A stretch of DNA of 64,000 nt from Arctopsyche grandis (Eukaryota; Arthropoda; Insecta; Trichoptera; Hydropsychidae). Location of the stretch: contig NC_135358.1 in NCBI RefSeq assembly GCF_051622035.1, positions 8,535,001 to 8,599,000 of the forward strand, in the 5' to 3' direction. The notes below the pieces were generated by a model that saw only the letters and a program-made list of their open reading frames with translations, ran no database searches and was not told the DNA's origin. Made by a program: the position numbers and the translations under genes. Within the stretch, counting starts at the first letter, position 1; each line of letters begins with the position of its first letter. Below are positions 1 through 64,000 of the stretch, one piece after another.

Positions 1-150
1 TTTGTAAATGTAATTACTTTTTTGTTTTTTAAAATTTTTACAAGAAAATTTCAACAATTTATAAAGAAAAGATATATTATATAAATGGCTGATAAATCCT
101 ATTTTTAATAAAAATTTGTACTAATCATCTATGCGTGTTTGTTTTTTCAG

Positions 151-6100: not shown

Positions 6101-6935
6101 GATGCACGGTAACCCAGAATTTATCTATCCCACGTACTTAAAAAATGGCAGACCAAAAGAAAAGCGTTATAAATGCCACAAATGCCCTTCTGCTTTTGAA
6201 AAGAGAGAACAGTATAAGGTCCACTTGTCGTTGCATGGATCTAAACAAAGATACAAATGTGAAATTTGCGATTATTCCGTTAAATATTATGCAAATTATG
6301 TTCAACATATGCGCAAGCATCAAATGAATGCCGATGCCCAAGCAGCTCGTCAAGGTATCTCCAAACCGGAACCGTTGGAAGAATTCACTTTACAAAGCAA
6401 AAGCGACACAAAATTAGCCATAAAAAGTCTTCCCAAACAATCATACAAAGATAGATCAAAGTTATCAATAAGTGACCAACAAACATTGAAACTTTTACAT
6501 AGAAGACGTTCAAGCGGTGCCAGTAACAAAGATATTCCCGAAGAACGTAAGGTGTACAGATGTACTTATTGTCCTTATACTAACCAGAGACGAGACGCTT
6601 TGGATAATCATATGAGACGTCATGCTTCTGTCTCTGGTATCAATGGTAACTTTACATGCCATTATTGTGATTACGCAGCTCCGCAGTCGCAATTTTTACG
6701 AGATCATATGAAAGTTCACTTCCATCAACCAAAGCACATAGCTCCCGATTACTTTTCTAATTTTGAAGGTTTGAAAATATCTATTTCTAAATTAAGCGAT
6801 CCAGTTTCAAACACCTCTGATATTTGCGATCAACAATGTTTGTTTAATGCAAATCATAGTGTTGACACTATTTTTAATAACAATAACGAAAATAAAATAT
6901 ATGTTATACCTAATACAGGAGAAAAACTCATTTAA
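151..6935 (+). CDS. Large C2H2 zinc-finger protein, charlatan/REST-like; 5' end outside window
   Basis: Three exons are readable: 151-1757, 3662-3851 and 4335-6935. Each has an AG acceptor and GT donor, with phases 2 then 0, giving 1465 residues in the window. The first exon opens after a polypyrimidine-AG acceptor, so the start codon lies upstream. The protein has about 18 C2H2 fingers of the C-x2-C-x12-H-x3-4-H kind plus two degenerate ones. Fingers are often in spaced pairs whose second Cys is followed by PY, DY or NY, as in REST-type repressors. Both introns cut inside a finger, between the Cys pair and the His pair. An N-terminal PLNLS motif resembles a CtBP-binding site. The likely role is a nuclear DNA-binding repressor. 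The finger containing SNWRWDITKHIR and the TDETGRRNYSKY stretch after it suggest insect charlatan (chn), but this is from memory and not confirmed. AATAAA signals lie at about 7070-7080. The 1.9-kb first intron and 0.48-kb second intron hold only AT-rich sequence and a G10 run near 4171. Confidence 0.85.
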
Positions 6936-10689: not shown

Positions 10690-11051
10690 AGAGTAGCTTT
10701 TACGCGGCGGGCCGAGTCGAGTCGAGTCAAGAGGAGGGAGACGAAGAGGTAGGGGGCGGGGGCGGGAGAACAGAGGGGGCGACAGCTCCAGTCGTGTTCG
10801 TTTGTCTGCGATCGCGACTGCCACTGCGAATGCGAATGTGAATGCGATTACAGCTGGGACTTTTGTCGTCTTTCGAGTCGTTGGTGGCCGATGCCGATGC
10901 TGATGCTGATGCGAATGCGTATCGACAACCTCATCTGCGAGTGACGGACGAAGACGGAGACGGTGACGGTGACAGTGACAGTGACAGTGACAGTAACAGG
11001 AACACCCCCAAACCGCCACCGCCGCTCGCCCGGATGGCTATGGGCTGAGGC
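10690..11051 (+). promoter_or_regulatory. GC-rich promoter and 5' UTR of Asx, with upstream ORF
   Basis: Base composition changes sharply from AT-rich repeats to GC-rich DNA with GGGGCGGGGGCGGG at about 10755. Short tandem units follow: GATGCT-like repeats near 10895 and GTGACA repeats near 10965-10995. An upstream frame of 68 codons runs 10842-11048 and ends three bases before the Asx ATG. No TATA box is evident. Confidence 0.5.
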
Positions 11052-14000
11052 ATGGAGGAGGGCGGCGGGGATGGGGGCGCGCCGGGGGGCGGAGGCGCCC
11101 CCGCTTCGGACGAGAGCGGCGGCGAGTTGGGGCGGAGGCGCGGCCTGTCTCGGCTGATCGTGAAGCCGGTGGTGGAGCCGCGAGCGCCCACCATGCGCGA
11201 AGTCCTCGCGTCCATCCCCGGGTTCATGATCCCCCCTCGAGCCAGGGGCCGCGCCAGGGCCGGCCGGAGACTCTCAGCCGCCGCTCAGTTGCGCCAGACC
11301 AGGGAGGGTCGCATAGACCTGGAGACGCCCGACTCCATCCTGGTCAACGCCAACTTGCGAGCCCTCCTCAACAAACACACCTTTGCCCTATTGCCGAGTC
11401 TCTACCAACACAAACTAGCCCAACTCCTCCCGGCCGTAGACCGACCGGCTCCCGGAGCCAGACTACCCGCGTCCACCCTCAGCAACGAGTTCTTCGCCAG
11501 AGCTTGCCTCGACTGGCAGGACGGACTCTCCGAAGGCGAGTTCACACCCGAAAACCAGCAAAAGCTACGCACCGAAGCCGAGCGGGACAAGAGCCGTCTA
11601 GATCCATGGAAGCTTAAACATTTCGAACCGGTGTGGGGCGAAAAGCGAGAAAAGCGACAACCTAGCGTATTGTATTATCACCCAGAACGGCCCAAATTAA
11701 GGCGAGCGCGTAGGGAAAGGGAGCGGGACCGGGATCGTGATCGGGACAGAGACCGGGAGCGAGACCGAGAAAGGGAGCGTGAACGGGAACGGGAACGCGA
11801 GCAAAGACGGGAGAGACAATGCGAACGGGAGAGGGAAAGAGAACGTGCCGGTGGTGCTGTAACTCGTTCAGCGACGAGAGCTCATCGTCACCGCGGTAGT
11901 CGTACCCAGCAAAGTATCTCGGCAACCGCTAGTACGGGTGCCGAACGAGCTCCAGACTGCTCGCATTACGTAGACTCTGCCGCTGCACCTCCTACTCCTT
12001 ACTGCCACGATCACAAACACGAAGATCCATATGCGGTCGATCCTCTCCTTATACCCGACACCGATCCCAGATCCACTACTCACGTTGACCCCCATCAAAA
12101 TCCTACTGACGATTCTACCGATGCCGCTTCGCACGAATCTGCCGAAAAGAGATCTGTAACCAATTTGCCGACCGCTTTCAATAACAAAAAAGTCAAGTAC
12201 GACGAAGAACACAATGACATCGTAGACTTTCCATCGTCGTCGCAGACTAAATTAGACGACAGTCAAACTGATAAATATTACAAGGAAGATCTCAAATGCG
12301 ATGATATGTATGATCGCAATTCATTGTGCGTCTCGTTTGACGGTCATCTAGAACAGTACAATTTCGACGATAAGAATGAATTATCCGATGGTAGTAAAAG
12401 AGACGATTACAAACCCAAAGTTGAATGCTCGAGTGATTCCAACGACGAATCGTATACGAATCAACTCTTCTCCAATGTTGAAAATCCGTCGAAGCAAACT
12501 TTAGATGAAATTATCGGCACTGAAATTTACACGTCGGCTAAGAGCGATCAGAGTGAAGATTGTGCGTCTCAATTTTGCGGGGAAGATGTCGACGCTTGCC
12601 GTGCGCAAATTTTGGACAATTCCTCCAGAACCGACGAGGAACAACAAACCGCCGATTTGGTCGATGATAGTTTATTCAATGGAGTCATGCAAATGCAGTC
12701 CAACTCCCATATGCCGCAAAATAGTGAGAATAATTTTACAGACATTACCGATTACTCCAACGATGTCGAAGAAGACTGTCCTCATCAATCTATGGAAACG
12801 AATGAAATTCTCGATGATAAAGATACACTCGATACTGAAGACCGTTTCCATGATGCAGAATCTTTCGTATTAGAATCTGGAGCCATCTCAAAAAGTAATT
12901 TATTATATTTCATATGTGGTTATTTTTTTGATGTTTTCTTTTTTTAATAACGTTGTCTATATTTTTAGATGTCGCTGAAATTCATACTGTAAACAACAAT
13001 ATTACATCCCAAACGGAAGACGTAAACACATCTTTATTCAACTTTAATGTACCTACAGGTATATTTTTATGTTCTTTTATTCAGGGTAAAATGGTTTAGA
13101 AAAAAACACAAATGATTCATTTACTTTATTTGTAATAATGTACATAATACTGCTCAACAGACGTATCATTCTAATTAATCACACTAGTTTCAACATAAAT
13201 ACAAAACAATTTTCATAATATATAATCTTCTTCTTTTTAAGGTATCAAAAAATCTGACGTTGAAGATATACTTGAAGGTGATCCTAGGATTTCAAATGAA
13301 GTTTCTCAAACAGAATCAATTCCGATGACGATTATATCAAATCCTCATAATGTAAATCCTTCAGTATGTGTATAGATATTTTGGATTTTTTATTTTAAAT
13401 ATGAAATAATCTTAAATAACGTTATATTTTTTTTTTTCAGGTTGCATCGGTACCGGAAGAATTTCAAGTAAAGTTGGAGCAAGTTTCATTGTGTGACCAG
13501 CAATGGAATCCGCATAGTTTAGACAGTCATTGGAATGAAAAACTCATAACGGAGACAATGAAAATTAGTGCAAACTCTGACAATTCAGTGTTTTCCGAAC
13601 CGCTAGTATTACAAGCCGATTTGAAGCACGAAATTGATGTAAATATTATCCCAGGAAAGAACTTTTCTAAAAATGTGATAAACAGTGATAATATTATGGG
13701 CAATGAAATCCCATCCCAAGTCCCCGAAGTCCTTAACACTACTCCAATTGTAAATAGTCTTCCCTCAATAGAAATAAACACTTGTGATATATCTAAAAAT
13801 ACCTTAGTAACCTCCAGTAACATCACGTCTCAGCCACCTGTCTCAAATACAAAAACTATAACCGTAACTAAATCAAAATCAAAATCTGTCTCAAAGGAAT
13901 CTGCAAACAGCAGGTATATAAAATTTACTTTGCTTTTAATAATGTTCATTTCGTCCGATGACGTTGTAATATCGATTTAAATATATTTCAGAAACCGCAG

Positions 14001-17013: not shown

Positions 17014-19380
17014 TTACTGCTGATTGCATTGAAGACCGGGTCCGCCGTGACCGTGCAGCTCATCGTCATAATTGTTGTACGCTTCTTCCCTTCTGTCGTC
17101 GGAATATTCACTTAGATCCACCTCTTCGACGTTATCTCCGATGGGCATCACGAAGGGCGGACGAGGCGGGAAGAGTTTCTCTAAGCATTGCAAAGTTTCC
17201 TCAGATTGAAAATTGTTGTCGGGGAAAGTAATCGCGAATTCTATGTATAGATTTCCTTTTTCAAAAGGATTTTTGAAGTGCGGCATCCCTTCGCCCTTAA
17301 TACCTTTAATGTCTCCAGGTTTGATTACATTGCCCGGCTCGTTCTTTATGAGCAGGTCACGTCCATCGAGATGTTTCATGATGTAACTAAATCCACAGAG
17401 GGCTTCTGTTAAACCGACAGTGTGAACCATGAACAAATCGTCTCCCCTGCGTCGAAATTGGCTATGACTTTTCTGCTGCAGCACAATGATGACATCACCC
17501 GGCTGCATGTCGGGCTGCTGATCACCTTCGCCTGCGAAGCAATACTTATGCGAGTCTTTCATTCCCTTATCAATATGCACTTCAATAATTTTCGTCTCGT
17601 TAATGACTTTCTTTCCCTTGCAAGTCCAACAACGATCCTTTTCGTTGAAAGTAGACCCTTGTCCGTGACATTCAGAGCACCGACTCTGTATTTGCTGTGT
17701 CATACCTGGACCTAACATCTTATAAGTGATTCTGATGCCGTGACCTTTACAATCTTTACAGACTACAATAGCCTTAGCTTTCCCCCCGATGCCTTTGCAC
17801 GTTTTGCAAATCACATTTTTGCTCAGTTCTAACTTAGAAGTTTTGCCATTGTACATATCTTCTAAAGAAACTTGCAGTGGATGAATAGTGTCTTCTCCAC
17901 GTTGTCGTTGCCTCATGCCCGGACCTCGCATTCCACCCATGCCGAAGATACTGCCGCCGCCGAATATATGCGAAAACAAGTTTCCAGACATAAAATTTTC
18001 ATCATAACCGCCTTCTTGCATTCCTTTTACACCATGCATATTGTAGAATTCTCTCTTTTCTGGATCCGACAGTATCTCATAAGCGTAAGTAATTTCTTTG
18101 AATTTATCACCCGACTCGGGATTTTTGTCAGGGTGGAACTCCTTGGCGAGCTTCCTGTAATTCTAGAAAAAAAAAAAGAAAAATTAATATTTAACAGAAG
18201 TAACTTTAATATCAAATACAAATATGCTTTAAATTTTTTAAGGCGATTAAAATTAAACGCTATGTACTCATAGATATTTTTATCTCTGATTCGCAGAACA
18301 TTCAAATACACTTGCCAATTCATTTTGAATCAATAAAAAGTTAAAATTTATATCCAAATTTAAGCGATCTATGTAGATTCCAGGACTGTGGAGTTGGAGA
18401 ATTTCAAACAGTAAAAAACCAACCGACTTTTACTTATTTTCGACGTCAACTTATAAGTCCACTAATAAATTGTAATTTAATATTTTCTTTATAAAAATTA
18501 TTAATTTAATTTACACTTTAAATAAAATTGCACGCATTTTCATGTGTTTTGACCAAAATCAATCGTTTTCTTCGTCTCATATTTATTGATTTAAATGATA
18601 TTTTTGTGTACGAAATTCATACACATACGCTTTGAATGGAATTACTTTTTATTTATACCTATTTCATTTCATTACCAATAATTCAATAAATTGGGTTAAA
18701 TATAAATATTTAATAATATAAAAAAAAAATATATATTTTGAAAATTGCTTTTATTTTCATTTTCATTACTAATAATTTTATACGTTGGCAAGAAAAGCCG
18801 ATCTTACTAAAATCGTAAAATAAATTAATAGTCAGTCGGTAAATTTTGATCAGACTCCACAGCCCTGGTATATTTCGAATACGTTTTTTTTTTTTTTTTT
18901 TTTTTAATTTTCCTTCATTCGATAGATTGAAATTGTAACCACGGCATAAACATAATGTAATACAAAGGAATTATGTAAGAAATCGGGTATTATATGACGA
19001 AATGCGATTCCATATTGACAGTAGAAGGGGCGTATATCCAAAGAGTCAGATGGTTGAAATGACAGCGAAATGTCGAATGGCGAATCGCGAAAAGCTATCT
19101 CGACTAGCGATCAATGACAGCTAGTCCCGTTATGATAGTGGCGAAGCAATTGAAACAAAATGGCACTAGATTAGTACAGGTCGAATTTGACAGACAATAG
19201 ATGGAGGGGGGTGGGGGGGGAAGCGGGTAGTGAATGGAGGGTTTGAATGGAAGTGCAGGTGGAGGCGGGGGTGAGGTGGGGGAGGGGAGTTGGGGGGGCG
19301 AGGGGTCTCACTCGTTTGATATCAGCGTCGGTGGCATCGCGGCGCAGCCCCAAAACCTCGTAGAGACGATCGTCGGCCAT
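17014..19380 (-). CDS. DNAJA2: DnaJ homolog subfamily A member 2 (type I Hsp40 co-chaperone)
   Basis: Two exons, 19312-19380 and 17014-18162, join in phase 0 to give 405 residues, the usual DNAJA length. The intron splits the J domain (LYEVLGL, then [13 protein letters not shown] with the catalytic HPD). A Gly/Phe-rich linker ([15 protein letters not shown]) follows. Then come four CxxCxG zinc-binding repeats ([32 protein letters not shown]) and the C-terminal substrate domains. The protein ends CNQQ, a CaaX-type farnesylation box like CAHQ of DNAJA2. It should stimulate Hsp70 ATPase and deliver unfolded clients in the cytosol. The [11 protein letters not shown] start and the [15 protein letters not shown] block favour DNAJA2 over DNAJA1. 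The 1.15-kb intron has a poly-T run near 18887. Confidence 0.93.
19195..19310 (+). repeat. G-rich tract at the start of DNAJA2 intron 1
   Basis: Successive runs of 3-9 G on the plus strand, such as GGGGTGGGGGGGG and GGTGGGGGAGGGG, lie directly inside the 5' splice site of the minus-strand gene. The G-rich strand is the template strand. It could form G-quadruplexes, but that is only inferred from sequence. Confidence 0.5.
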
Positions 19381-19959: not shown

Positions 19960-21459
19960 GGTCTGTTCATACTTAACATATGATAGTAGATAGAATGCAA
20001 ACAGACACCGGGAATCTAACCTTGGATGGAGAGGTGATAGAAAGAGTAAAAAGATTCAAATACCTGGGTACTTGGCTGAATGAAGAGATGGACCCAGATG
20101 AAGATCTAAGAATCCGCATCGAGATGGCTAGAACAGCATTTGTAAAAATTAAGGCGGCGCTTACAAACAAGCATCTCAATCTTCATACGCGGTTGAGATT
20201 CGCGAAGAGCTACGTCTGGACATTATTACTACACGGATGTGAGACGTGGACTCTGAAAACCAAGATGATCAGCCGCATTGAAGCTTTTGAGATGTGGGTC
20301 TATAGGCGTATGCTGAAGATTCCGTGGACCAAAAAGATATCAAACGAAGCTGTCCTCGGCATGATGGGGAGAGACAGGGAACTTGTTTCTGTCATCAAGC
20401 GGAGAAAGATGGAGTACCTCGGACACATGATACGGGGTCCAAAATACGAATTTCTCCGTTTGACAACCATGGGGAAAATAGAAGGAAAAAAATGGATTGG
20501 CAGGAAAAAGTTATCTTGGCTTCGAAACATGCGCATGTGGACCGATATGGGCGCCGAAGAGCTGTTCCGAGCCGCTGAAGACCGATGCGGATATATTCAA
20601 CTAATCGACGAGGTGGTCGCCAACGTCCGGATGCGGACAAGGCATTAACAAGAAGAAGAATACTTAACAGCACTGCACGGCTTCAGCACTGCACGATCCG
20701 TTTCAAATATGTCATTTTATCAAATTTCTATTCATATCTACCTACACGTCACGTTTACAGCAATTTGGCCGAGTGCAAGGCAAAATCGGCTTACTTATAC
20801 ATTACAGGCCATGGCGATACGGCGCAATATTGCTTACGTCGTATTGTCGAGTACTTACAATAGCAATGAATGCATACACGTGCGTTCGTAGCTACGCGTC
20901 AGAATACAAGTCAGCAAAGATGTTTCGGCGTTTATCGAACGAAAAATTATTAATAAACGCGTTGTTGTTGGAAGAAGAAGCTCAAGGAGGCAATAAAAAA
21001 GCACGGAGGCGTTTTGATGTGCATCCCATGTTAAAAAATAGAAAAACCGAAGGAGAGTTTTGGATACTGTATAAGGAGCTTGTGGATGATGGACAAAAAA
21101 TTTTTAAATATTTCCGTAAAAAATTTAATTTTTTTTTAAATATTTGCGCCAAAACCATGTCGAAAGATTGAACAGCTGTCAACTTTCACTGTCGATAATT
21201 GGTCCAAAACAGCAAAGCGGCAGACTCATGGCACGTAATTCGCGTGTATATTTCCACGATGGCCAAAAAAACGGATCGATACGTTGACGGATGTTGCTGT
21301 TAGGTATGAACAGGAAATGTCGGGTACTGATGTAAGCCTGTCGTGGCGTAAACGTGACGGTTGAAATGAACATACCCATACAAAATCTACCAAAGAATAC
21401 TTTTCGTACGGCCGGATACCTGCTGAAGTCGGTACGTGCCGACTAGGTATGAACAGACC
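19960..21459 (+). mobile_element. PIF/Harbinger DNA transposon, internally deleted, carrying a LINE insertion
   Basis: Terminal inverted repeats GGTCTGTTCATAC and GTATGAACAGACC are flanked by the 3-bp duplication TAA, diagnostic of PIF/Harbinger. An 83-codon frame (20920-21171) encodes the start of a Harbinger transposase, with a long EEE stretch, RRRFDVHPMLKNRKTEGEF and LYKELVDDGQKIFKYFR. It stops before any DDE catalytic region, so the element is non-autonomous. A 681-bp LINE fragment (19979-20659) sits near the left end. Without it the transposon is about 0.81 kb. Confidence 0.85.
19979..20659 (+). mobile_element. 5'-truncated RTE-like LINE 3' end
   Basis: An open frame (19980-20648, 222 codons) matches the C-terminal part of LINE reverse transcriptases: FKYLGTWLNEE, LLHGCETWTLKTK, FEMWVYRRMLKI, YLGHMIRG and GRKKLSWLRN. 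The element ends in an AGAAGAAGAA tail. It is flanked by the 10-bp target duplication ATACTTAACA (19969-19978 and 20660-20669). The intact frame suggests a fairly young insertion, but the endonuclease and most of the RT are missing. Confidence 0.85.
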
Positions 21460-33797: not shown

Positions 33798-36700
33798 TTA
33801 ACGCCTGTCGGTTTTTCCCATACCCCTCTTTCCAGAGAACAAATGCTTGGGCATTTTATTACCAATGAAACGATCTGCCTCACCTTTGAGACCCCTGCTC
33901 TTTACTTTCTTACTTATAGCCTTTTGGCTGATTTTGTGCAACCTTGACTTCATCTGCAATAAATAAAAAAAGTATTTTTTAAATATTCATCAACCTATAC
34001 AGGCAAGAAAACATTATTAACATAATACATACAGCAACATCCTTGACTCCCTGTTCATCTCTCGGCACAGTGCTAGCACTTCGTCCACGACTCAATGAAC
34101 GGCCAGATACTGATTTAGACGCCTCTGATAAAGCACGAGCTTTCTTGGCAGCAGGTCCTCTTGACATGGAACGTGAACGAGCACGAGAGAAATGTGTATT
34201 CTGTGTCTCAGACATATCAACACCTATAAAAGAATGTGTTATTTAACATTCAAGATGAAAATATTATATATTACACATAAAAAAATTATCATTTCTAAAT
34301 TACCGAGTTCTTCCATTTCATCGACCAATTTTGATACAGTGCGGTCTTTAGCTTTGCAGACTGTATTACGTGGCATCACCGGTTTAGTTGATTGTTTAAC
34401 TATTCTCGATTCATCCTTCATGATCGCACGTTTATTTCTAAAACATTTTAATTTAAGAATCAATATAAATTGCCATTATTAGTCAATCTGGGTGAATTTG
34501 TATATTTTTAATTAAATAACCTGATTTGCAATGCCAATTCTTTGATTTCCATGAGAGTTTGATCCAATTCAATTTTGGGAACAACATACATTCCAGCTTC
34601 TTCTCTGAGTTCTTCATCCTTTTCGAGTTCTGCCAGTTTCTAAAAGGAGCAGTTTTTAGCCGTTAATTGAAAGATAGTTTTAAAAATCTACCGATTTGTT
34701 ATGACTGTTTAATTCTAACCTCAAATATTTCAGGATCAATATAATCTGCAACATTGTGTCCTTCCCAAAATTCTGGTATAATATCGTATCGCTCATCTGC
34801 TGGGATCTCATAATAGCTCTTTTTCAAATCTATATAAAAGAGTCGTTATTTATTTGGTTTTTATATTACAAATGAGAATTTTATTAGCAAAAAAGTACCT
34901 AAAACGTAGTCGATGCCTTCTTCTAGTTCAATTTCTCTCTCCAAGCGACGTTTTTTGGAAGCGGCAGACTTTTCTTTCTTTTCGGCAACCATTGGAGGAA
35001 TGAATGCTGGACGTGGTTTATCATCTCTTGGTGCTGGAATAGCTACATGAAGGCGGTTCAAAATACCGTCAACCTATTGAAAATGATTAAATCAGACAAT
35101 GATAATCAATAATAAATCCACATCACAAGCTAGGCTGGAAATGAACCTTTTTGGTCCTCATTTTTGCATCGACACGGAAACTGAGAAGTCTTTCGCATGC
35201 TTCATTTTTTACTTCCTGTACACCTTCACCGGAAATAGTAGACATTTCCAACATTGGAATTTCAATATCTTGCTTTTCACCACTGAAAATAATAAATCAA
35301 TTCATTATTGACTCTTTCAACTTATATATATTTTTAAAATTTAAATTGACACGCTTACTTTTCACTGGTCACATTACCAGCAATCCGTTTTTGGAACTCC
35401 ATCATGATTTCTTTTTTATTTTGTGGCAAATCTTGTACTCGTGTCACATCAACTTTATTCAACACTACCAGTAAAGGTTTGTTGCTGAACAGAGGTCTTA
35501 TGCTGTCGAATAAAGCCACCTAAAATGAGTAAAATGATTGAATAACCAACAAAATATTAATAAAGATTTAATGATACTTAGAATGACTTTATTTATTTAC
35601 CTGTTCCTCCAAGCTATGACCACATTGTTCACTCACATCCATGACATATAAAGCACAAGCTCTCAAATGAGCCAAGGCTGTCACAGCCTGCATTTCAATA
35701 ACATTACGATCTTCCAATGGATGATCCAATATACCAGGAGTATCCAACACCTGAAATTTTCCCGAATTACAAACAAATCAAAATAATCGAGAAAATAAGA
35801 AAAAAAAGAATAGTATTTTACCTGCCAACGAAGATATTTATAATCTGTATGACCGACGTATAAACTTTTAGTAGTGAAAGCATACGGTTGAACTTCAACA
35901 TCAGCCCTTGTAATCTAAAAAATATATATAAATTTTTAATATTGACACATACTGATGAATTTTGCAGTAATATTAGAAGAAAATTTACCTTGTTGATGAA
36001 ACTTGATTTTCCGACATTAGGGAAGCCGCAAATGATTATGGTTCTTGTATATGGATCTATAGACGGCAGCCGAGACAAATGTTGACGCACCTATTAGATT
36101 GAAAATTTTAATAAAAATAAAGTGTACTTTTAAAACGATTTAGGTACATTATAAAACGTTTAGATTTACTTGTTCTAAATATGTGAGATTCGCAGCTTGC
36201 CTCTTCATTATAGTAGCCATTCGGCCTAAGGCAGCCCGTTTCAACTGTTTACATCTGTATAAACTGTCTCCGTATTTAAGTAGTCGCACATATTCTTTAG
36301 AGACACTGAAAGAAAATAGTTTAAAGTAATTAAAAATAATAAAAAAAATAAGGAAATATCACAAGATTCCGGAATAATAACATACTTGTCAATAAGATGT
36401 CTGGCAGTGTTTAGCTGTCCCAAACCCAGCTTGTAGTGATCCTTATCGTAGAGGACATTCATGAGATCTGCATAGAAAGGATGAACGTCATCTAGTTTGG
36501 GAAACTCTTGAATAATACGCGACAACCGATCGTGAAAGTTCTGCTGAGTGTATTTCACTTTACGCATATAAAATCCACGGATACGAGATATCTTGTAATG
36601 TTTGTGCACAACAGTGGGAGTCTTGCGCTGGGTCTTCGATAGCATAACATCTATGAATTCCTAAAACAATCGTAATAAGACAGTGTTGAGAAAATAATTA

Positions 36701-39598: not shown

Positions 39599-40008
39599 TT
39601 ATTTTATTGTACTATTTCCAGATCCTGTGCTTGCGTACTTGTTGGTATCTGGAGTTGATAACGTAAATTGTATAAGAATTATGAGATATGTTGTTGCAGC
39701 TCCAACCATCTAAAATTAAATTTTAAACAGAAGACATTTTATTTACAATAAATTCACTAAATTAATTCTGCTTACCGTAAAATATAGTGTATTATCTATT
39801 GGAAAAAAACCACAAGCAGAAAATTTCGGATTCCTATGCAGCAAATAAGTTGAAAAATGATGCAACTGAGACAAATATTTGTAATTAAATAAATGTTTTC
39901 AAATTTCATTTATAGAGTTAGGTTTTGTTAAGTTTATACCTTTCTAATGATATTTTCGTCTTCTTCTTGTATCATCATTTTATTTATTAATATTGTTGTT
40001 TTCTTGGC
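39599..40008 (-). CDS. Gustatory receptor: shared C-terminal exons 2-4
   Basis: Three small minus-strand exons: 39940-40008 (23 codons), 39776-39865 (30 codons) and 39599-39709 (36 codons plus stop). All are phase 0 with GT-AG sites. They encode an amphipathic segment (MMIQEEDENIIRK), the conserved SACGFFPIDNTLYFT block, then MVGAATTYLIILIQF. The last is the TYhhhhhQF signature in the seventh membrane helix of insect gustatory receptors. No second set of such exons could be found between 41080 and 50388. All six upstream first exons end in a phase-0 donor after Glu that fits this acceptor. The products would be seven-helix ligand-gated cation channels of chemosensory neurons, 415-434 residues long, differing in their first 326-345 residues and sharing the last 89. 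Confidence 0.88.
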
Positions 40009-40101
40009 CTGAGAAATATAATTGAGAAAAAAGTTTAAAAAGTCATTAAAATACTGAAATTTTTACTAAAATAATGGAGTTTTAAATACAAAATGAAATA
40101 C

Positions 40102-41079
40102 CTCTGCGATACACTTATTACATTGGTATATTGTAATAACAATATTGTTAATATGAACTAAAGTGTGATTTATAGAGAAAAAAAGAAATTCGTATAGTTT
40201 ATTAGACCCGATGCCATTAAGTATCCAACCCACAGTAATCATAATGTAAAATATGTTAAGCACAATAGACAAAAATGATATAGCCATAATAACAAGTATG
40301 CTTAGGGAAAAATGATCATTAATTGCTTCAGCGACATGACATAATTCACTATAAATTTTCATCATAACATGCAATTGTAACTCTTTTACAGTGTTATAAA
40401 ACGTAGGATTTTTAGACTGCTTTCGAACGAATTTGGCTTTTGATAATTGAGTATTCAGCAATTGAATGCAAGTAGACACTTCATGAATGCTCACTATGTA
40501 AGAAATAATAGCACTCACAGTTATATAGTTCGTCAAAAACATGGTAGCAGATACACGAAAAGTTACTTTCTTACTCCATTGATTTAAAACAAACAAAGTG
40601 ATTATCATATAAAATGAGTGATATAATTGATTAATTATAGCTATGATGATAATACGAATTTTCACATCTTTGTAATTCCTTTGAACGGCTATTAATTTAA
40701 ATAACTTATCCATTTTGGTAAAAATAGTCAAAATAATTCCAATTTTATTCTTCTGTATAAACACGTTCATATAAATGAAGATGATACAAACTAAACCAAG
40801 AGTGAGACGTAACTTGTCTGCTATTTTAAAGATACTTGCTGAATAAAGGTTCCCTATCATCATTTCTGATCTTAAAATGACCAATATGAAGCATATAATG
40901 AATGATATGAATCCAATCATCAGGTGAATTAGAAATATAATGTGGTAGGTCACTTTATAAACATCTCCTTCTTTGTATATGTGAAATGGGTTAAGCCCGA
41001 TAACTTTTCCCACAAAAAATAATGGCTTTGTGGCTTCGTACATGTTTTCAGAATGTAACAGATTTTTAAAGAAACCCAT
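40102..41079 (-). CDS. Gustatory receptor alternative first exon 1f (proximal)
   Basis: Starts MGFFKNLLHSENMYEATKPL and runs 326 codons to a GAG|GTATTT donor after CNKCIAE. It contains six predicted hydrophobic membrane segments and the family blocks ADKLRLTLGL, MDKLFKLIAVQRNY and HVMMKIYSELCHVAEAIN. With the shared exons about 90 bp downstream, it makes a complete 415-residue receptor. It is the least similar of the five proximal copies to the others. Confidence 0.88.
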
Positions 41080-41515
41080 GACTAAAATTTTTATTTGAAA
41101 GAGCTACTTTACAAACAAATATTGAAATGGGTAACACGTTATAATGGTAAAATCGATATTGACTCAAATTATATAAATGTACATTTACTAATTAAAAATG
41201 ACAGAAGACACGAAAATGTATGTACAATACACTTAAATATACAAACATGACGCTCTAATGAAGTGTTTTCATTAAATACAATATAAAATATAAACTGATT
41301 TTATGTTTTCTAAAGATATCTGCTTTTAAGTCGATATTCGATACCTAGATTTTTTTTTAAATCAGCTTAGATTTCGATATATCAGGAGACTCAGTTTCTA
41401 AATATTCCATAGAAAAAAAATATTTTTATTTGGTGTAATAATTATTAAAAATACAAGTAATTGATATTGTTGAGTGTGTTCATTAATATACATATATATA
41501 TTATTAGATATTTAC

Positions 41516-42532
41516 CTCTAATTCACAATCATTGCAAATTTTTACAGCATACGCAATATTAATTGCGTTATTGATTCCTTGCTGGAGTGAAAAACATAGA
41601 AATGAGGTAAGTGTAATGGTGTTTCTGCCCCCCAATATAAACACTATGGTTATCAGCACATAAAATAGATTGAATACAGTTGTCACAAATGATATTCCCA
41701 TAATAACTAAAATGCATTGAGCATTATATATATTCAAAATATCAGCAGCCTGGCACAATACATCATATATTTTTACAATAACAAGAAGTCTACTTTCATT
41801 CGTTTGCGCATTTAATCGAAATAAAATCGGCGGAACTCTTAATTCTTTTATATTGAACGGTTTGATATACTCAAAATTATTTTTCAACATCAAGGCAATT
41901 TGCCTATTTACTAATTCCAGACTCATAGTCAAGAAATTTATGTAACAACCATAAAAAATGATAATTGCAGTAACAAAGTAAGTGGGTGAATACACAGCTA
42001 CGTTCAAATAAAATGAGGGTATATGGTTCCATGACTGGACCAGGAACAAAGTAAAAAATGTATATAAGAAGGACATAGTTTGAAAAAATATAAAACGTAT
42101 AATAAAACGCACTTTAGTATTACTGTAATTTCTTGTAACTCCTATCAATTCAAACAATTTATCAATTTCTAAGTATTTGTTTAATATTTTAATATAAAAA
42201 TTCCGTTTTGTAAAACAATCAATGACTGAAAATATAATAGCAATCAATCCGAGGGTCATTCTGAATTTATCTGACATTTCAAAGATTTTCGACGAGTATA
42301 TGTATCCTGTGACAGTTTCATTTTCTTTTATTACAAACCAAAAACATATACTATAGAAGCCGTAAATAACAAGCATAAAAAGTAATGTTGGAAAGTGAAG
42401 TTTAGTTTTAAATTGGTGTTTCTCTTTGACTATATAAAATGGGACAAGACCATTAAATTTCCCCATAGTCATTAATATATCAAATGGCTCCCTGATGTCT
42501 TGGCAGTATGAAAATTTTCGAAAAAATTTCAT
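41516..42532 (-). CDS. Gustatory receptor alternative first exon 1e
   Basis: Starts MKFFRKFSYCQDIREPFDIL and runs 339 codons, ending CNDCELE with donor GAG|GTAAAT. Family blocks include MSDKFRMTLGLIAIIFSVID, IDKLFELIGVTRNY and IVKIYDVLCQAADILN. It is a close paralogue of exon 1c. No C-terminal exons follow it before exon 1f, so splicing to the shared exons at 40008 is inferred (predicted receptor 428 residues). Confidence 0.85.
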
Positions 42533-42814
42533 TCTGTCGAAATGTGTACAACGTTAAAAGAGTCAATATATACTCAATTTTATCAGACAGATATTTACAT
42601 TATTGAAATAACTGACTATTAAACAAAATTAGTCATTATGACAAAGAGCACTATTATTATTTTAGGTTTGTGACTAATTAGTTAATGACTGTACAATTTA
42701 AAGGGAAATAATGAGCAAATTAAAACATTTTGATCAATATAAATTTAATTGGACCATTTGAAATGAATTTTTTAAATATTATATTTAAAACAAACAAAAA
42801 TTATTATCAAGACT

Positions 42815-43026
42815 GGTAATTGGATTATTAGTCACATCACGATCGCCCAAAAAACAATTTGTGGCATGAAAATCGCGAATACGGAATATTTGGCACTCGA
42901 GTTCTTGTTATGTAGTATAAGAGTTATCGTTAGCATGATGGAATTTTCGGCTGCCAGATGTTCCGTTATACATAGAGATTTTAGATACTTTTGGGCGAGC
43001 GCTTTGTGACCAATAATCACCGAACC
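42815..43026. mobile_element. GGT...ACC foldback MITE, full copy, 212 bp
   Basis: It begins GGTAATTGGATTATTAGTCA and ends GTGACCAATAATCACCGAACC. The arms are imperfectly inverted and the element is flanked by the 8-bp duplication TCAAGACT (42807-42814 and 43027-43034). This copy gives the clearest boundaries for a family that also includes 10560-10659, 28085-28291 and, by its ends, 29291-29510. Confidence 0.8.
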
Positions 43027-43034
43027 TCAAGACT

Positions 43035-44025
43035 AGTGTTGTGGCCGATGAAATATCATCGCAGGGCATATTAAGCTATTAATTAAAAGAAATGTGTCAG
43101 TCCTGTGTTCGATCCGCACGCGGTCGGATTTATTTCAAATACCTTCTAAATATATTTAATTTAATATTTATATTTTATTCTTTAATATGAAAAAAATGGT
43201 TAAAATTACCTACATATAAACAATATAAAACACCAATAGGAAAAATAATTAATTGATTAATTAAATACACTTTCAATAGGTGGCGGTAAATGCTCTGAGC
43301 CTATTGCCCTAGAGGAAAAATTAGCAAAAACTAGCAAACAGTATATATAGAAGATTTTTCGGCAAAGGTCCAGCGCCGGGTCAGTTTCTGTTCAGTGTGT
43401 GAGTGTGTGTGAAAGGGGAACCGGAATTGAAAAAGGAATCCGCATCCGGATCTGAGAAAAGAATTGAAATCGATATCGAAAGCGTCGTCATAGAAAATTT
43501 AATTTTTTCGATAACGTCACGGATTCTACGAACCAAAACTTACATACGTACATACAAAGTCTCTTTTGAAATTATATATTAGATAAGCTACTTAAGAATG
43601 TTTTTGGATCTATAATCTTGATGCGTTTACATAATATTAATTTATTATTTATTAAACATAATATTAGTTTATATTATATTATATTTTTTAAATATATATT
43701 ATTCATTACAAAATACTATATAGTATTCTTTACAAAATACAATATATTTTTGAAATATATAAATATTATACATAATATAAAGATTACCGAAAAATCTTCT
43801 TAATAAGTAAAACGAATTTGGAGACACCCAAAAGAACCTCATCAGTTGGTTGAAATAGATAAACACAATCTGTGAAAGATTAGGAGTTCAAAGAAAGCAT
43901 ATGCCTTTAGTAAAGGAAGATAAATTCTGTTGGAAGAACATTATTGAGACGCTAAGACCCCAACCGATCTTGAAAAAGGCGTAAATAAGATGAAAGAAAA
44001 TCAAATACAATAATAATACACTTAC
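43035..44025. other. Spacer between receptor exons 1e and 1d
   Basis: Contains a tRNA B-box-like GTTCGATCC near 43111, which may be a SINE fragment. A plus-strand TATATATA about 35 bp before a TCAGT initiator-like sequence (43338-43385) could be a core promoter or part of an old element. Very AT-rich DNA follows at 43615-43800. No exon with the receptor C-terminal signature was found. Confidence 0.35.
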
Positions 44026-45045
44026 CTCAATTTCGCAGTCATTACACATTGTTACGGTACACATTATATTAACAATACTAGTAAAGGTTTGATGCAGAGA
44101 AAACATCAAAAACGATACGTCTTCAATGGTTGGACTATTTTTTAAAAGCCAAACAAGCTCATTCAATATATAAAATATATTGAAAACAATAGATACAAAT
44201 GATATGCCCATAACGACTAGAATACATTTAGTATAGTATTTATTTATAATATCGGCAGATTGACATAGGCAGTCATAAATTTTGATGAAAATATAAATTC
44301 TATATTCGATTACGTCGGGAGGATTTCTTGTAAAAATAACATTAATTTTGGAATTTTTTAAATTGATAAAGGTATTCTTGATTTCACCAGATTTTATGAT
44401 AGCCAAGCGCAGCTGTTTATTTAACAGTTTTAATGTGACAGTTAAAGCTTTTACATAACAGCAATATATTATAATAATAGTGGTAATAAAGAATGCAGGT
44501 GTATAAATAGCTAAGCTTGTAGTTAGTGCTATTTTCGAAGGCCAAAGGGATATCAAATACGAATTTGTCAGTAAACTAACAATATTCATCAATTGGCACG
44601 AAACTGTTAAAAGGATACAGATAAATTTTACTTCGTTATAATTTCTAATTACACCAATTAACTTGAATAAATGATCGATCTGATTTAGCTTGTTCAATAT
44701 GTCGCTATAAAAGTTTTTCTTCATCATACAATCTATATACAAAAGCAACGTTGTAATAATACCGACGAACACTCGAAACTTATCTGTCATGTTATATATC
44801 ATAAAAATATAATTGGATTCTGTAACGGGGTTGTATTGTATCAATGAATGAATGCTGCAAGAAGTGTAAATACCAATGCATATAATTGACATAAGGAAAA
44901 TGGGAATATTTAGTTTTGTGACATATTCATGTTTTGACTTTATAATTTTGAATGGAATAATTGTGTAAAAATTTCCCACTAGCAATAATGGTGCAAATGC
45001 ATTTTTTATATCTTTTGCTGTGTGCATTCTTTTAAAGAATACCAT
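44026..45045 (-). CDS. Gustatory receptor alternative first exon 1d
   Basis: 340 codons from MVFFKRMHTAKDIKNAFAPL to CNDCEIE with donor GAG|GTAAGT. The open frame extends 27 codons further upstream, but alignment with exon 1b supports this Met as the start. Blocks: MTDKFRVFVGIITTLLLYID, LNQIDHLFKLIGVIRNY and FIKIYDCLCQSADIIN. It is a close paralogue of 1b. Predicted receptor with shared exons: 429 residues. Confidence 0.85.
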
Positions 45046-45364
45046 ATCTAATTTAAAGATACTGATAAAATGTAGAATAAAGGCTAGTGATGTCTTTATG
45101 ATAATATTGGAAATATTAAATTTCAATTAATACTTTAATTTTGAATTAAAATGAGTACTCAGTTTGAACAAGCACTTAATTATAATCAAAATTAATTAAA
45201 AATGTCATTATGAGTGTCTGCCCAAAGCATGGTTTAACGGTATTAGCAAATATTTGTCTTATTTTATAATTAAAATGCAATTGAAATAGTTTTCACAATA
45301 GGTTAGTTATTTCTTTTTATATGCATTTTCGATATTGAAAATCAAATACAAAATTCATTCTATA

Positions 45365-45665
45365 TGTATACACAGATTACCTAAACACAATCTGCTTTAG
45401 GTCATCGACTTTAGAGAGTCTTTAATTACTATTATGTATTAGATGTATTGTGAGCATTTATAAGGATTGTAAATAGGTTTTTGAGCTCTTTTTCCTATTA
45501 TGCTGTAGATTAACATTAGAATAATATAATATTATGATTACTGACCAAATTAAATTAAATTGTAAAATACAAAATGATCAGTAGATCAGTAGCTATTAAA
45601 ATATATATAAGATGTATTGTGAACATGCTTTCGTAATAATAAAAAGCATTTAAAAATCAAAATCA
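45365..45665 (+). mobile_element. 5'-truncated Jockey-type LINE tail
   Basis: About 300 bp matching the 3' end of the longer copy at 48617-49294 (CACAGATTACCTAAACACAATC onward). It is flanked by the 15-bp target duplication AAAATTCATTCTATA (45350-45364 and 45666-45680). The duplication shows an independent retrotransposition event. Confidence 0.8.
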
Positions 45666-45890
45666 AAAATTCATTCTATAAAATATTATAGAACTACGTA
45701 ATACTGGTTTGTATAATGGTTTGCCCTAGATAAAAAAAATAATAATGTTTTATAATTAGGCACTTACGTATGTGTGCAATTTAATAAACTATAAAAAAAT
45801 CAAACATCGTTACAAATAAATGTTGAGTGCCCTATAATAACTGATTATAGTAAGTGTGCACATATATTATGTATGTATTTATATATTTAC

Positions 45891-46925
45891 CTCTAATTCA
45901 CACGCATTGCAAATTTTTACACCATATGCGAGGTTAATCGCGTTATTGAAGCTTTGTTGAAGTGAGAAAAAGAGAAATGAGTATAGAACGATGCCGTTCC
46001 TGCCTCCCAATATAAATACGGTGGTTATCAGCACGTAATATAGATTGAAAACAGTTGTTAAAAATGATATTCCCATAATGACGAGAATGCATCGAGCGTA
46101 ATATTTATTCAAAACATCAACAGCCTGGCACAGTAAATCATAAATTTTTACAATAGCAAAAAGTCTGCTTTCATTCGTTTGCGCATTTAATCGAGACAAA
46201 TTCGGCGATACTCTCGATACTCGCAATTTTCTTATTGTAAACATTTTGGTACATTCAAAATTGTTTTTCAACAGTAGGGATATTTGTTTATTTAGCAATT
46301 CCAGGCTCAAAGTTAGGCAATTTATGTAACACCCATAGATAATGAGAACTGTGGTCATAACGTAACTAGGTGTATACACAACTGTGTTCAAGTAGAATGA
46401 TCTCCATAAAGAATTTTGATTCCATAACTTAACCACGTACAAACTAATCCATGAAAACACCACGTTTGAAATTTGATGGAATATATAACGCATAATAAAA
46501 CGCACTTTAACATTAATGTAATTTCTATGAACTCCCATTAATTCAAATAATTTATCAACTTGTGTGTATTTGTCATATATGTTGCTATAAAAATTCTTTT
46601 TAATAAAACAATCTAAGATTAAGAATATCATAGAAAACAATCCGAGGATCATTCTGAATTTATCTGACATATCAAATATTACCGACGAGTATATGTATCC
46701 TGTGACAGTCACATTTTCTTTTATTATGTACCAACAGGACATATAATACACCGATTGTATACAAAACATAAAAATCAATGATATAATATGAAGCTTAATT
46801 TTAAGTTGAAGTTTCTCTTGAACTGTATAATATGGAACGAGGGTACATAATTTCCCAATAATCATTAATATATGCAATGTTTCTCCGATGTCTTGGTTGT
46901 ACCAAATTTTCCTCAAAAATTTCAT
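45891..46925 (-). CDS. Gustatory receptor alternative first exon 1c
   Basis: 345 codons from MKFLRKIWYNQDIGETLHIL to CNACELE, donor GAG|GTAAAT. An in-frame Met lies eight codons upstream, but the MKF start matches exon 1e. It has blocks MSDKFRMILGLFSMIFLILD and VDKLFELMGVHRNY, with several strongly hydrophobic segments. Predicted receptor with the shared exons: 434 residues. Confidence 0.85.
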
Positions 46926-47361
46926 TTGTGTTAAATGATATCCACCCAAGAAGAATAAATACTGAATACTGAATTTTACTCAAGTTATTGAATTTTATAA
47001 TTGTATATAATTATACACACGCTGATTAGAAAATCAATATGTTAGCATTTGCGTTATTGAAATGAAAATTATTAAAAGGTCATATCTATGTACATATACT
47101 TATTTTATGACTTACTATTAGGTAAATTAATTATTATTATCTATCATCACAGAGAGTACCATCATTACTTTAGGTTTGTAGCTAATTACTGGAAATAGAA
47201 TGTACAGGCAAAATAATAGCATTTTAATCAATACAAATTCAATTTCTTAGTTTGGTAACGAATTATTTATACAATATTACACATGGAGAATTTGAATTTG
47301 CGCATTTTTGAGATTAAAAGTCAAATACAACATTCGCACTTAGAAATAAAACTATACCTAC

Positions 47362-48360
47362 CTCTAATTTACAATCGTTGCACATCTTTACTGCAGATAT
47401 TACATTAATGATACTGATAAAAGTTTGCTCTAGAGAAAAAATTACAAACGACACTTTTGCACTGTTTGAATTGAGATATAAAAGCCAAACAAGACCAGCT
47501 AACATATAGAATATATTGAAAACGATAGATAAAAATGATATAGCCATCACAACAAGGATAAATTTGGTGTAGTAGTTATTTATAATATCAGCAGATTGAC
47601 ATATGCAGTCATAAATTTTGATGAAAGTGTAAAATTTATTTTCTATTATGTCAGAAGGATTAAAAAATTTTGAATTTTTTATATTGAAACCTTTGATTTT
47701 ACCAGATTTTTCAATTTCTAAGTGTATTTTCTTATTTAATAGTACCAATGTGAACGTCAAAGTTTTGATATAACAGCAATATATTGAAACAATAGTGGTT
47801 ATTACGAAGCCTGGTGTATAAATAGCCATGCTCATATTAAAAGATGCCTTTGAAGCCCAAAGATTTACAAAATACAAGTTAATTAATGAGCACACCGTGT
47901 TCAGCAATTGGCACGAAACTGTAAACAGGATACAGCTCAATTTTACTTTGCTATGGTTTCTGATAACACCAATTAGCTTGAATAAATGATCGATCTGATT
48001 TAACTTGTTCAATATGTCGCTGTAAAAGTTTTTCTTCATCATACAATCTATATATAATAGCAACATTGTAATAATACCAAGGAACACTCGAAACTTATCT
48101 GTCATCTTATATACCAAAGAAACATACTCAGATCCTGTAACGGTATTGGGTTGTATTAATGCAAGAATGCTGCAAGAAGTGTAAATACCAATGCATATGA
48201 TTGACATAAGGAAAACGCGAATGTTTAGTTTTGTGATATATTTATGTTTGGACTTCATAATTTTGAATGGAATAATCGTGTAAAAATTTCCCACGAGCAA
48301 TAAAGGAGCAAATGCATTTTGTAAATTTTTTGCTGTGTAAATTTTTCTTAATAATGCCAT
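47362..48360 (-). CDS. Gustatory receptor alternative first exon 1b
   Basis: 333 codons from MALLRKIYTAKNLQNAFAPL to CNDCKLE, donor GAG|GTAGGT. It is a close paralogue of 1d, sharing LLLVGNFYTIIPFKI and MKKNFYSDILNKLNQIDHLF. Predicted receptor with the shared exons: 422 residues. The splice to exons at 40008 would cross more than 7 kb and four other first exons. Confidence 0.85.
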
Positions 48361-48616
48361 TTCAAAACCAAAGATACTGGCAAAATGTATGAGTATGAAC
48401 TATTAATGGCTCGTAAATTTTATTGAACTATTAAGTTTTAATTTAAAATATTGCTTTTATTTTGAATGAAAATAATTGTTAATTTAAATGACCACTTACT
48501 ATGATTATCAGTAATCAAGATTATTGTTTTGATGTGGACCAAAGCATTTTTAGTCGCATTAGTAAAATTTTTTAGTCAATTTTGCATATACATATATACA
48601 TGCATTTTACCATTTG

Positions 48617-49294
48617 GCGATGCGGGGTATATCCTCAATATATCCAATATTTAATCGCCATAGTTCTTTATCAACTCAAAATAAAATAAAATTATATCGC
48701 GCGCTCATATTATGTACCATTATTAACCTACGCTTCACCTGTATGGAATAACGCCTCGAATACTAACCTTTCCAAGCTCCTAGTAATACAAAATAAATCC
48801 ATAAAAATAATGTATAATACACCCATATATACTAACTTGAAAAAACTGCATGCCATATATGTATAATATTCCGTTTGTTACAGACATTACTAACAAACTA
48901 ACCAGTAGATTCTATGACAGAATCACTAATAACCATACTAACACACTTGTGAAGAGTCTCGGTGATTACAACAAAATGTCTATACCCTTCAGGTATAAAC
49001 ACAGATTACCTAAGCACAATCTACTTTAGGTTATCGACTTTAGTGAGTCTTTAATTAATATTATGTATTAGATGTATTATGAGCATTTATAAGGATTGTA
49101 AATAGGTTTTTGAGCTCTTTTTCCTATTATGCTGTACATTAACATTAGAATAATATAATACTATGATTACTAACCAAATTAAATTAAATTGTAAAATAGA
49201 AAATGATCAGTAGATCAGTAGCTATTAAAATAGATACAAGATGTAGTGTGAACATAATTTCGTAATAATAAAAAGCATTTAAAAATCAAAAAAA
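48617..49294 (+). mobile_element. 5'-truncated Jockey-type LINE
   Basis: Translation gives Jockey reverse-transcriptase C-terminal sequence: LTYASPVWNNASNTNLSKLL and VIQNKSIKIMYNTPIY, then, in another frame, TNKLTSRFYDRITN and LVKSLGDYNK. The 13-bp duplication ATTTTACCATTTG flanks it (48604-48616 and 49295-49307). One frame change within the RT region marks it as non-functional. Confidence 0.8.
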
Positions 49295-49389
49295 ATTTTA
49301 CCATTTGACGTTATGTTTTTAAAAATTAATATTTTTTGATATTGAAATTCAAACATAAAGAAAAAGAAAAAATAAGAGAATACACGTAC

Positions 49390-50388
49390 CTCTAGTTTGC
49401 AGTTATTGCAAATCTTTACGATGAAAATGACGTTACAAGAGTGAGTAGCAACTTGTTGGATAGAAAAAGCGAGAAATGCAAGCTTTTCATTATCTGCGCC
49501 ATCTCTGATAATCCAGGTCAGTGCATTTAATAAATAAAATATATTGAAGACGACAGACACGAAAGATATTCCCATAATTACAAGAATACAGTCAGTATGA
49601 TGATGATTTATAAAATCAGCAGTTTGGCAGACATAATCATAAATTTTAATGTAGACGGTAAGCCTATTTTCAATTGTATCAGAATGATTTCTCTTCAAAA
49701 TTACGGAAACTTTAGAGCTTTTTGAATTGGTCCAATTGCTTTCAACACTACTTCGTGTATGACATATCAGCTTGTTGAGAAATTCTAGACCGAGTGTCAA
49801 AAAATTTACATAAGAGCAAATTACAATGAGAATCGATGATATCACAAATCCTGGCGTAAAAATAGCTAAATTCATAATAAACGCATGTTTCAGATTCCAA
49901 AGAGACATTAAATGCAGATTAATTACTAAGAATATAATATTACTGAACAGATTTACAACAGAATATACTATTATACGCAATTTCGCCCTAGTGTAAGTCC
50001 TCACAATACTAATTAACTTAAACAATTGATCAATCTCAATAAATTTATTTAAGATGCGATCGTGGAATTTCTTCTTCGATATACAATCAATAGTAAGGAT
50101 GGACTGTGCAACGATCCCGCTGATGATTCGAAAGTTATCTGATATCTTAAAGAGAAGGGGTTTCGCCGAGTCAACATCATTTATTACTGCAAAAATGGCG
50201 CAAACCATGAAAAATGTGTAGGATGTCATGAACAAGAGAAATATTGGAATATTTAATTTAGAAATGTAGCCGTGTTTTGATTTCACTATGTCGAACAAAA
50301 TAACACAATTGAATTTTCCCACGAACATCAGTGGTTTCATCACGCTATGAATGTCTTTTGCAGAGAAAATTCTCTTAAAAAATTCCAT
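49390..50388 (-). CDS. Gustatory receptor alternative first exon 1a (distal)
   Basis: 333 codons from MEFFKRIFSAKDIHSVMKPL to CNNCKLE, donor GAG|GTACGT. Blocks: ISDNFRIISGIVAQSILTID, EIDQLFKLISIVRTY and YIKIYDYVCQTADFIN. It is the most diverged copy. It begins about 95 bp from a 384-bp palindrome that therefore lies in its promoter or 5' UTR. Predicted receptor with the shared exons: 422 residues. Confidence 0.85.
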
Positions 50389-50483: not shown

Positions 50484-50867
<384 letters not shown>

Positions 50868-50885
50868 TATATATATCTATCATAT

Positions 50886-51327
50886 ATCATCATCATCATC
50901 ATCATCATTTACAGCCATTCGCCATCCACTGCTGGATGAAGGCCTCTCCAACACGCTTCCACTCGTCTCTGTTTTGCGCAACATTCATCCATCTCACCCT
51001 GCATATTTTTCTAATTTCGTTCACCCATTTTCCTTGAGGTCTTCCTTTTACCCTTTTGCATTCTCTCGGGTACCATTCAAGCACATCTTTTGTCCACCTT
51101 TCGTCCATCCTCCTAGCTACGTGACCCGTCCATTGCCATTTCAATCTCTTCACTCTACCCACTATGTCCACTACTCTTGTCATAATTCTCACCCACGTGT
51201 TCCGCTTTCTGTCTTTCCTCGTTATAAGCGTTTCCAAGCATACAGCGTTCCATACTTCTTTGAGTGCATTGGATTTTATGTAGCATCTTGGCATTCAGTG
51301 TCCAAGTTTCACATCCATACGTCAACA
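50886..51327 (-). mobile_element. RTE-type LINE 3' end, part 1
   Basis: Minus-strand translation contains RSMERCMLGN, KRLKWQWTGHVARRMDERWT, GRPQGKWVNEIRK and GEAFIQQWMANGCK. This is the C-terminus of lepidopteran-type RTE endonuclease-reverse transcriptases. The 3' tail is a GAT trinucleotide repeat. It is cut off at 51327 by the nested repeat block. A more upstream RT piece appears at 52940-53090 on the same strand. Confidence 0.8.
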
Positions 51328-63489: not shown

Positions 63490-64000
63490 TCATCATCATC
63501 ATCATTTACAGCCATTCGCCATCCACTGCTGGATGAAGGCCTCTCCAACACGCTTCCACTCGTCTCTGTTTTGCGCAACACTCATCCATCTCATTCCGCA
63601 CATTTTCCTAATTTCGTTCACCCATCTTTCTTGCGGTCTTCCTTTTACTCTTTTGCCTTCTCTCGGGTACCATTCAAGCACTTCTTTTGTCCACCTTTCG
63701 TCCATCCTCCTAGCTACGTGACCCGCCCATTGCCATTTCAATCTCTTCACTCTATCCACTATGTCCACTACCCTTGTCATATTTCTCACCCACGTGTTCC
63801 GCTTCCTGTCTTTCCTCGTTATGCCAAGCATACAGCGTTCCATACTTCTTTGAGTGCATTGGATTTTATTTTGCATCTTGGCGTTCAGTGTCCAAGTTTC
63901 ACATCCATACGTCATCACTGGCAAAACGCATTGATCAAAGATCCTTTTCTTCAGGCAGAGTGGCATTTTTGATTTAAAAACAGCATTCATCCGTCCAAAT
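63490..64000 (-). mobile_element. RTE-type LINE 3' end, running off the window
   Basis: A 162-codon open frame on the minus strand (63502-63990) encodes an RTE C-terminus: VLPVMTYGCETWTLNAKMQ, RSMERCMLGI, LKWQWAGHVARRMDERWT and GEAFIQQWMANGCK. The tail is a GAT repeat. It is the best preserved copy in the window and uninterrupted here, so a longer element may lie beyond 64000. Confidence 0.85.

Follow-up and report, generated by a model that had tools for sequence, protein, structure and literature searches.

The closest described systems are found in Drosophila and in beetles, and the published accounts are drawn on here in part. For the Drosophila gustatory receptor (Gr) gene Gr39a, exon duplication together with purifying selection has been reported (PMC2204066). 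Alternative N-terminal exons are also on record for beetle Gr genes: TcasGr214 has 30 variants, AglaGr99 has up to 17, and DponGr38a-d are further examples (PMC6720082). A survey of Papilio set the expansion of moth receptors via gene duplication against the combination of duplication and splicing in a beetle (PMC9500883). In the sections of PMC3732137 used here, alternative splicing of Gr genes is undescribed in Bombyx and merely suspected in HmGr18, for the last two exons; the same source gives TYhhhhhQF as the C-terminal signature of insect gustatory receptors. In the portions consulted of a limited open-licence literature (including PMC4804390, PMC11102633, PMC10210156, PMC7079503, and PMC6171000), no alternative first exons of Gr genes were found in Lepidoptera or Trichoptera.

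In the window, that is, the whole 64-kb stretch of DNA analysed here, six long exons lie on the minus strand within 39599-50388 and were named A to F from the shared tail upstream. They comprise 326-345 codons each, and their pairwise amino acid identities are 29-68%. Exon A (40102-41079; 326 codons) is the nearest to the tail and is followed by exons B (41516-42532; 339 codons), C (44026-45045; 340 codons), D (45891-46925; 345 codons), E (47362-48360; 333 codons), and F (49390-50388; 333 codons), the last being the most distal. Every long exon, B and C included, shows an in-frame stop, then an ATG, and a frame that is open through to a phase-0 GAG/GT donor (the slash marks the splice border); the donor of exon A is unusual, GTATTT. 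Directly before the donor, all six peptides end in C-N-x-C-x-x-E (A, CNKCIAE; B, CNDCELE; C, CNDCEIE; D, CNACELE; E, CNDCKLE; F, CNNCKLE). The initial annotation had described six long minus-strand exons with phase-0 GT donors after this motif; the borders and frames agree with it, and its donor coordinates (40102, 41516, 44026, 45891, 47362, and 49390), its acceptor at 40008, and its span were all correct as read. Searching the 64 kb with a profile of the six exons recovered all of them with E values of 7.9e-132 or better; the best further match had an E of 0.13, and neither a seventh long exon nor a pseudo-exon was found.

The neighbourhood of the locus was named by eye. On the plus strand, the window carries ORFs resembling a C2H2 zinc-finger protein (112-6932) and an Asx-like protein (11049-12944), and on the minus strand a DnaJ-like ORF (17017-18162) and a NOG1-like GTPase ORF (35821-36660). 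Fragments resembling the end of a non-LTR reverse transcriptase were seen at 19977-20645 on the plus strand and at 50908-51294 and 63505-63999 on the minus strand. Just upstream of exon F lies a long palindrome (50484-50867) that is rich in (AT)n and whose arms measure about 190 bases.

Behind an intron of 93 bases, exon A is followed by three small exons on the same minus strand, e2 (39940-40008; 23 codons), e3 (39776-39865; 30 codons), and the last exon e4 (39599-39709; 36 codons plus the stop). All three are in phase 0 with AG and GT borders, e4 ending in the stop instead of a GT, and the acceptor of e2 reads TTTCTCAG/GC. Together the three exons translate to MVGAATTYLIILIQF, in which the insect gustatory receptor signature is present as TYLIILIQF, encoded by e4. 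When each of the six long exons was joined in silico to e2-e4, the frame stayed open and gave a protein of 415-434 amino acids. An e3 profile made from 12 sequences and an e4 profile made from 13, all taken from other receptor genes in the same genome with the window tail excluded, each gave a sole significant match in the window (e3, E 1.5e-16, next best 0.35; e4, E 1.5e-8, next best 1.9). For e2, one full match was obtained by tblastn (E 1.2e-11), the next among the matches listed having an E of 0.56. The claim that only one C-terminal exon set with TYhhhhhQF exists is thus borne out by the single e3 and e4 matches. Separate C-terminal exons behind each first exon, which the initial annotation had named as the counter-case, were looked for with the tail profiles and none was found in the window. 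A second tail between the long exons was detected neither by the e3 and e4 profiles over the five intervals of 436-1493 bases nor by tblastn among the matches listed, all of which were to e3.

The Pfam family PF08395 (7tm_7) covers nearly the full length of spliced A (E 1.5e-50) and spliced B (E 1.7e-45). When the long exons C to F were scanned alone, the E values ranged from 1.2e-14 to 6.4e-12, the latter for exon F, and the matches ended at profile position 280-299 of 370; the end that is missing there is therefore provided by the small exons. By sequence, spliced B matched the solved gustatory receptors 8vc1 (E 1.7e-6), 8uvt (E 4.8e-6), and Gr43a 8jm9 (E 3.8e-4), and the part of it that matches best, residues 272-408, includes both the exon border (339/340) and the protein end. 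The last helix of a gustatory receptor lines the pore, and the ligand is held by earlier helices. The idea that the shared tail would provide a fixed channel end agrees with the way in which the tail aligns to the C-terminus of the solved receptors.

Other receptor clusters of the same genome were used for comparison. The 475.7-Mb genome contains at least 91 matches to PF08395. Among 31 loci (L001-L031), L001, L003, L009, L026, L029, and L030 represent the window locus, and L006, L028, and L031 represent a gene in cluster C13, which has a tail. The control consisted of 18 long exons of three clusters, C11 (13), C6 (3), and C12 (2). All 18 control exons have a last exon of their own, 15 by a strict last-exon pattern and the others, two of C6 and one of C12, by a looser one, whereas the window locus has one tail for six. 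No tail was found by pattern within a 1500-base flank of L018, L023, and L024 (C9) and L025 (C3). A shared-tail layout was considered for C12, in which the first of the long exons at 24557539 and 24564406 is without a tail within 1500 bases; however, the gap holds a tail at 24560511, and the C12 cluster is therefore ordinary. Of the 13 long receptor exons of cluster C11 (24607888-24665429), 12 lie on one strand and one on the opposite strand. A candidate tail of its own was seen for every one of them; one exon carries a TGA, and three are nearly identical recent copies. For the C11 long exon at 24657285, two candidates for the last exon, at 24658737 and 24662762, precede the next long exon, and the second candidate looks like an orphan.

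The exon structure, the single tail, and the contrast with the 18 control exons support the earlier reading of one locus with six alternative first exons and a shared C-terminus. Judged from the DNA, the locus is very likely one complex gustatory receptor gene of the Gr39a type, which would yield six receptors from alternative first exons and one tail. The architecture of that type is present, with several long exons having their own ATG and donor and one small 3' exon set. According to this model, each of the six long exons would start a transcript, probably from its own promoter, and its phase-0 donor would join the tail acceptor at 40008. Since first exons have no obligate acceptor, the intervening long exons would be spliced out as intron. 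The predicted products are six receptors of 415-434 residues with the last 89 residues identical, which would differ in the portion that the long exon encodes (transmembrane segments 1-6 by analogy).

One promoter per long exon is favoured, because each exon has an ATG of its own with an in-frame stop upstream of it and because an initiator-like TCAGT is found near the ATG in four of the six. We take TCAGT to be the arthropod initiator. Within 120 bases before the ATG, it gave five hits in these four exons (shuffled mean 0.64, P 0.001), the pattern having been chosen after the window exons were viewed and four other patterns having been counted beside it. In a count independent of the window, seven of 18 other genes had TCAGT within the same distance (mean of 1.6 in shuffled sequence, P 0.0007), with three of the seven hits coming from near-identical paralogues. 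The shuffling preserved base composition in 30-base blocks, not dinucleotides. No TCAGT lies in the 120 bases before the ATG of exon A or of exon E, and exon E carries CCAGTATCTTT at the place where exon C carries TCAGTATCTTT.

Alternatively, a single distal promoter could give a non-coding leader exon that any of the long exons could follow in the spliced transcript; the long exons would then be mutually exclusive internal exons chosen by splicing. An AG does occur shortly before the ATG in several of the exons, at -2 in B, -3 in A and C, -7 in F, and -17 in C and E. However, the pyrimidine tracts are poor by eye, in exon D no C/T-AG is found nearer to the ATG than -37, and the initiator-like TCAGT near the ATG is also enriched upstream of family members that are single genes, so that we regard a common leader as improbable, though it is the strongest of the alternatives. 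Against the preferred model of separate first-exon promoters, poly(A)-like hexamers were noted between the donor and the exon that follows it in five cases out of six; these are as expected of AT-rich DNA, yet they could end distal transcripts early. The unusual donor of exon A and the missing TCAGT of exons A and E count against it as well.

It was also considered that the gene consists of exon A and the tail alone and that the five distal exons are functionless, tail-less duplicates, given that A alone adjoins a tail. The constraint on the long exons speaks against this. Of the 15 exon pairs, 13 are synonymously saturated, and dN/dS is usable for B/D and C/E only, A and F being too diverged. 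For B/D, dN was 0.214, dS 0.525, and dN/dS 0.41 by NG86 (0.222, 0.493, and 0.45 by YN00), and for C/E the corresponding values were 0.171, 0.526, and 0.33 (0.186, 0.399, and 0.47). Both young pairs thus have ratios below 1, and purifying selection on alternative exons, as in Gr39a-type loci, is seen at 0.33-0.47 for these two pairs, a pairwise ratio being an average over both copies and their past, which does not prove present-day use of every exon. Stops or frameshifts occur in none of the six long exons, and all six donors are kept. In a neutral simulation with our own simple substitution model without indels, run 4000 times per exon at half of the NG86 divergence, exons B, C, D, and E acquired a mean of 9.5-12.1 stops per exon; none of the 4000 simulated copies of B, of C, or of D and one of the 4000 of E were still intact (1/16000 overall). 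Because the dN/dS values are 0.33-0.47 and the frames and donors were kept against about 9-12 neutral stops per exon, decay of the distal exons as tail-less copies is unlikely, and we consider a gene made of A and the tail alone very improbable. A very recent loss of function in distal exons may have occurred. Least probable of all, and hardly to be expected, is that separate genes acquire the common tail through trans-splicing or that their tails were lost in assembly: this is compatible with the DNA alone, but the exon order on the strand suits ordinary splicing, and the five intervals of 436-1493 bases hold no significant tail match in a window that is free of N.

The relationships of the exons were examined in a midpoint-rooted tree of 27 rows, which contained the six exons of the window, all 18 exons of the control, and L018, L023, and L024, but neither the C3 and C13 loci nor any match without a locus. 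The six window exons form one clade (support 96/94), in which A branches first, followed by (B,D) and (F,(C,E)). B and D are sisters with 63% amino acid identity, and C and E are sisters with 68%. With this midpoint root, the window clade groups with the own-tail exons of C11 and C6 (support 88/88), the supports around the group being moderate. The DNA similarity found by blastn stops 17 bases past the donor in C/E and 23 bases past it in B/D; upstream, it is limited by the ATG in B/D and reaches about 200 bases before the ATG in C/E. Further similar patches upstream of B and D were seen in a MAFFT alignment. The simplest history is that the long exon of an A-like gene was copied upstream several times without its tail, and we infer that in the youngest step the E-D pair was copied into C-B, or the reverse. 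The locus would thus have expanded from an A-like gene through duplication of long exons without tails.

Two features of the spacers were recorded. The E-D gap (46926-47361) and the B-A gap (41080-41515) are both exactly 436 bases, which is probably a coincidence, because these gaps do not correspond in a duplication between E-D and C-B. A 305-bp repeat lies upstream of C (45367-45671) and of E (48996-49297), and its copies, 93.8% identical, are far more alike than the neighbouring exons (about 77-80% DNA identity); the repeat is perhaps a mobile element or a product of gene conversion.

Since the window exons group with same-genome receptors that have one tail per gene, a separate origin from Drosophila Gr39a is suggested by the tree, which was built without Drosophila sequences. 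We tentatively propose, as a possibility with somewhat less than even chances, that in a moth, a butterfly, or a near relative, insects whose receptor gains are attributed to the duplication of whole genes, a Gr39a-like six-in-one gene arose independently by the copying of first exons alone, its nearest relatives in the same genome keeping one tail per gene. The locus offers a clean case, with a same-genome comparison, of receptor diversity through the copying of the first exon alone. It raises the questions of why duplication involves whole genes in some receptor clusters and first exons alone in others, and of whether one common tail couples the channel ends and the expression of the six receptors.

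Compared with the known systems, in the parts of the accounts used, the locus has the same layout as Drosophila Gr39a, including a seventh segment encoded by three small exons and a CAG/GC acceptor (PMC2204066). A unique N-terminal exon with common C-terminal exons is likewise found in the beetle genes; however, the number of shared exons is one in most D. ponderosae cases and two in DponGr38 (PMC6720082), against three at the window locus. The lepidopteran bitter receptors resemble it in having three introns near the 3' end, but the intron phases are 0-0-1 in a number of them and 0-0-0 at the window locus (PMC9500883). Of two protein families that mark Lepidoptera, Gloverin gave one match in the genome (E 2.6e-5, over the cut-off) and Chorion_1 gave none, a result that does not demonstrate absence. 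If the host is a moth or a butterfly, the shared-tail layout would be unusual among Lepidoptera, as far as the limited literature covered goes. The layout itself is already known from flies and beetles, and the window locus is a further case of it.
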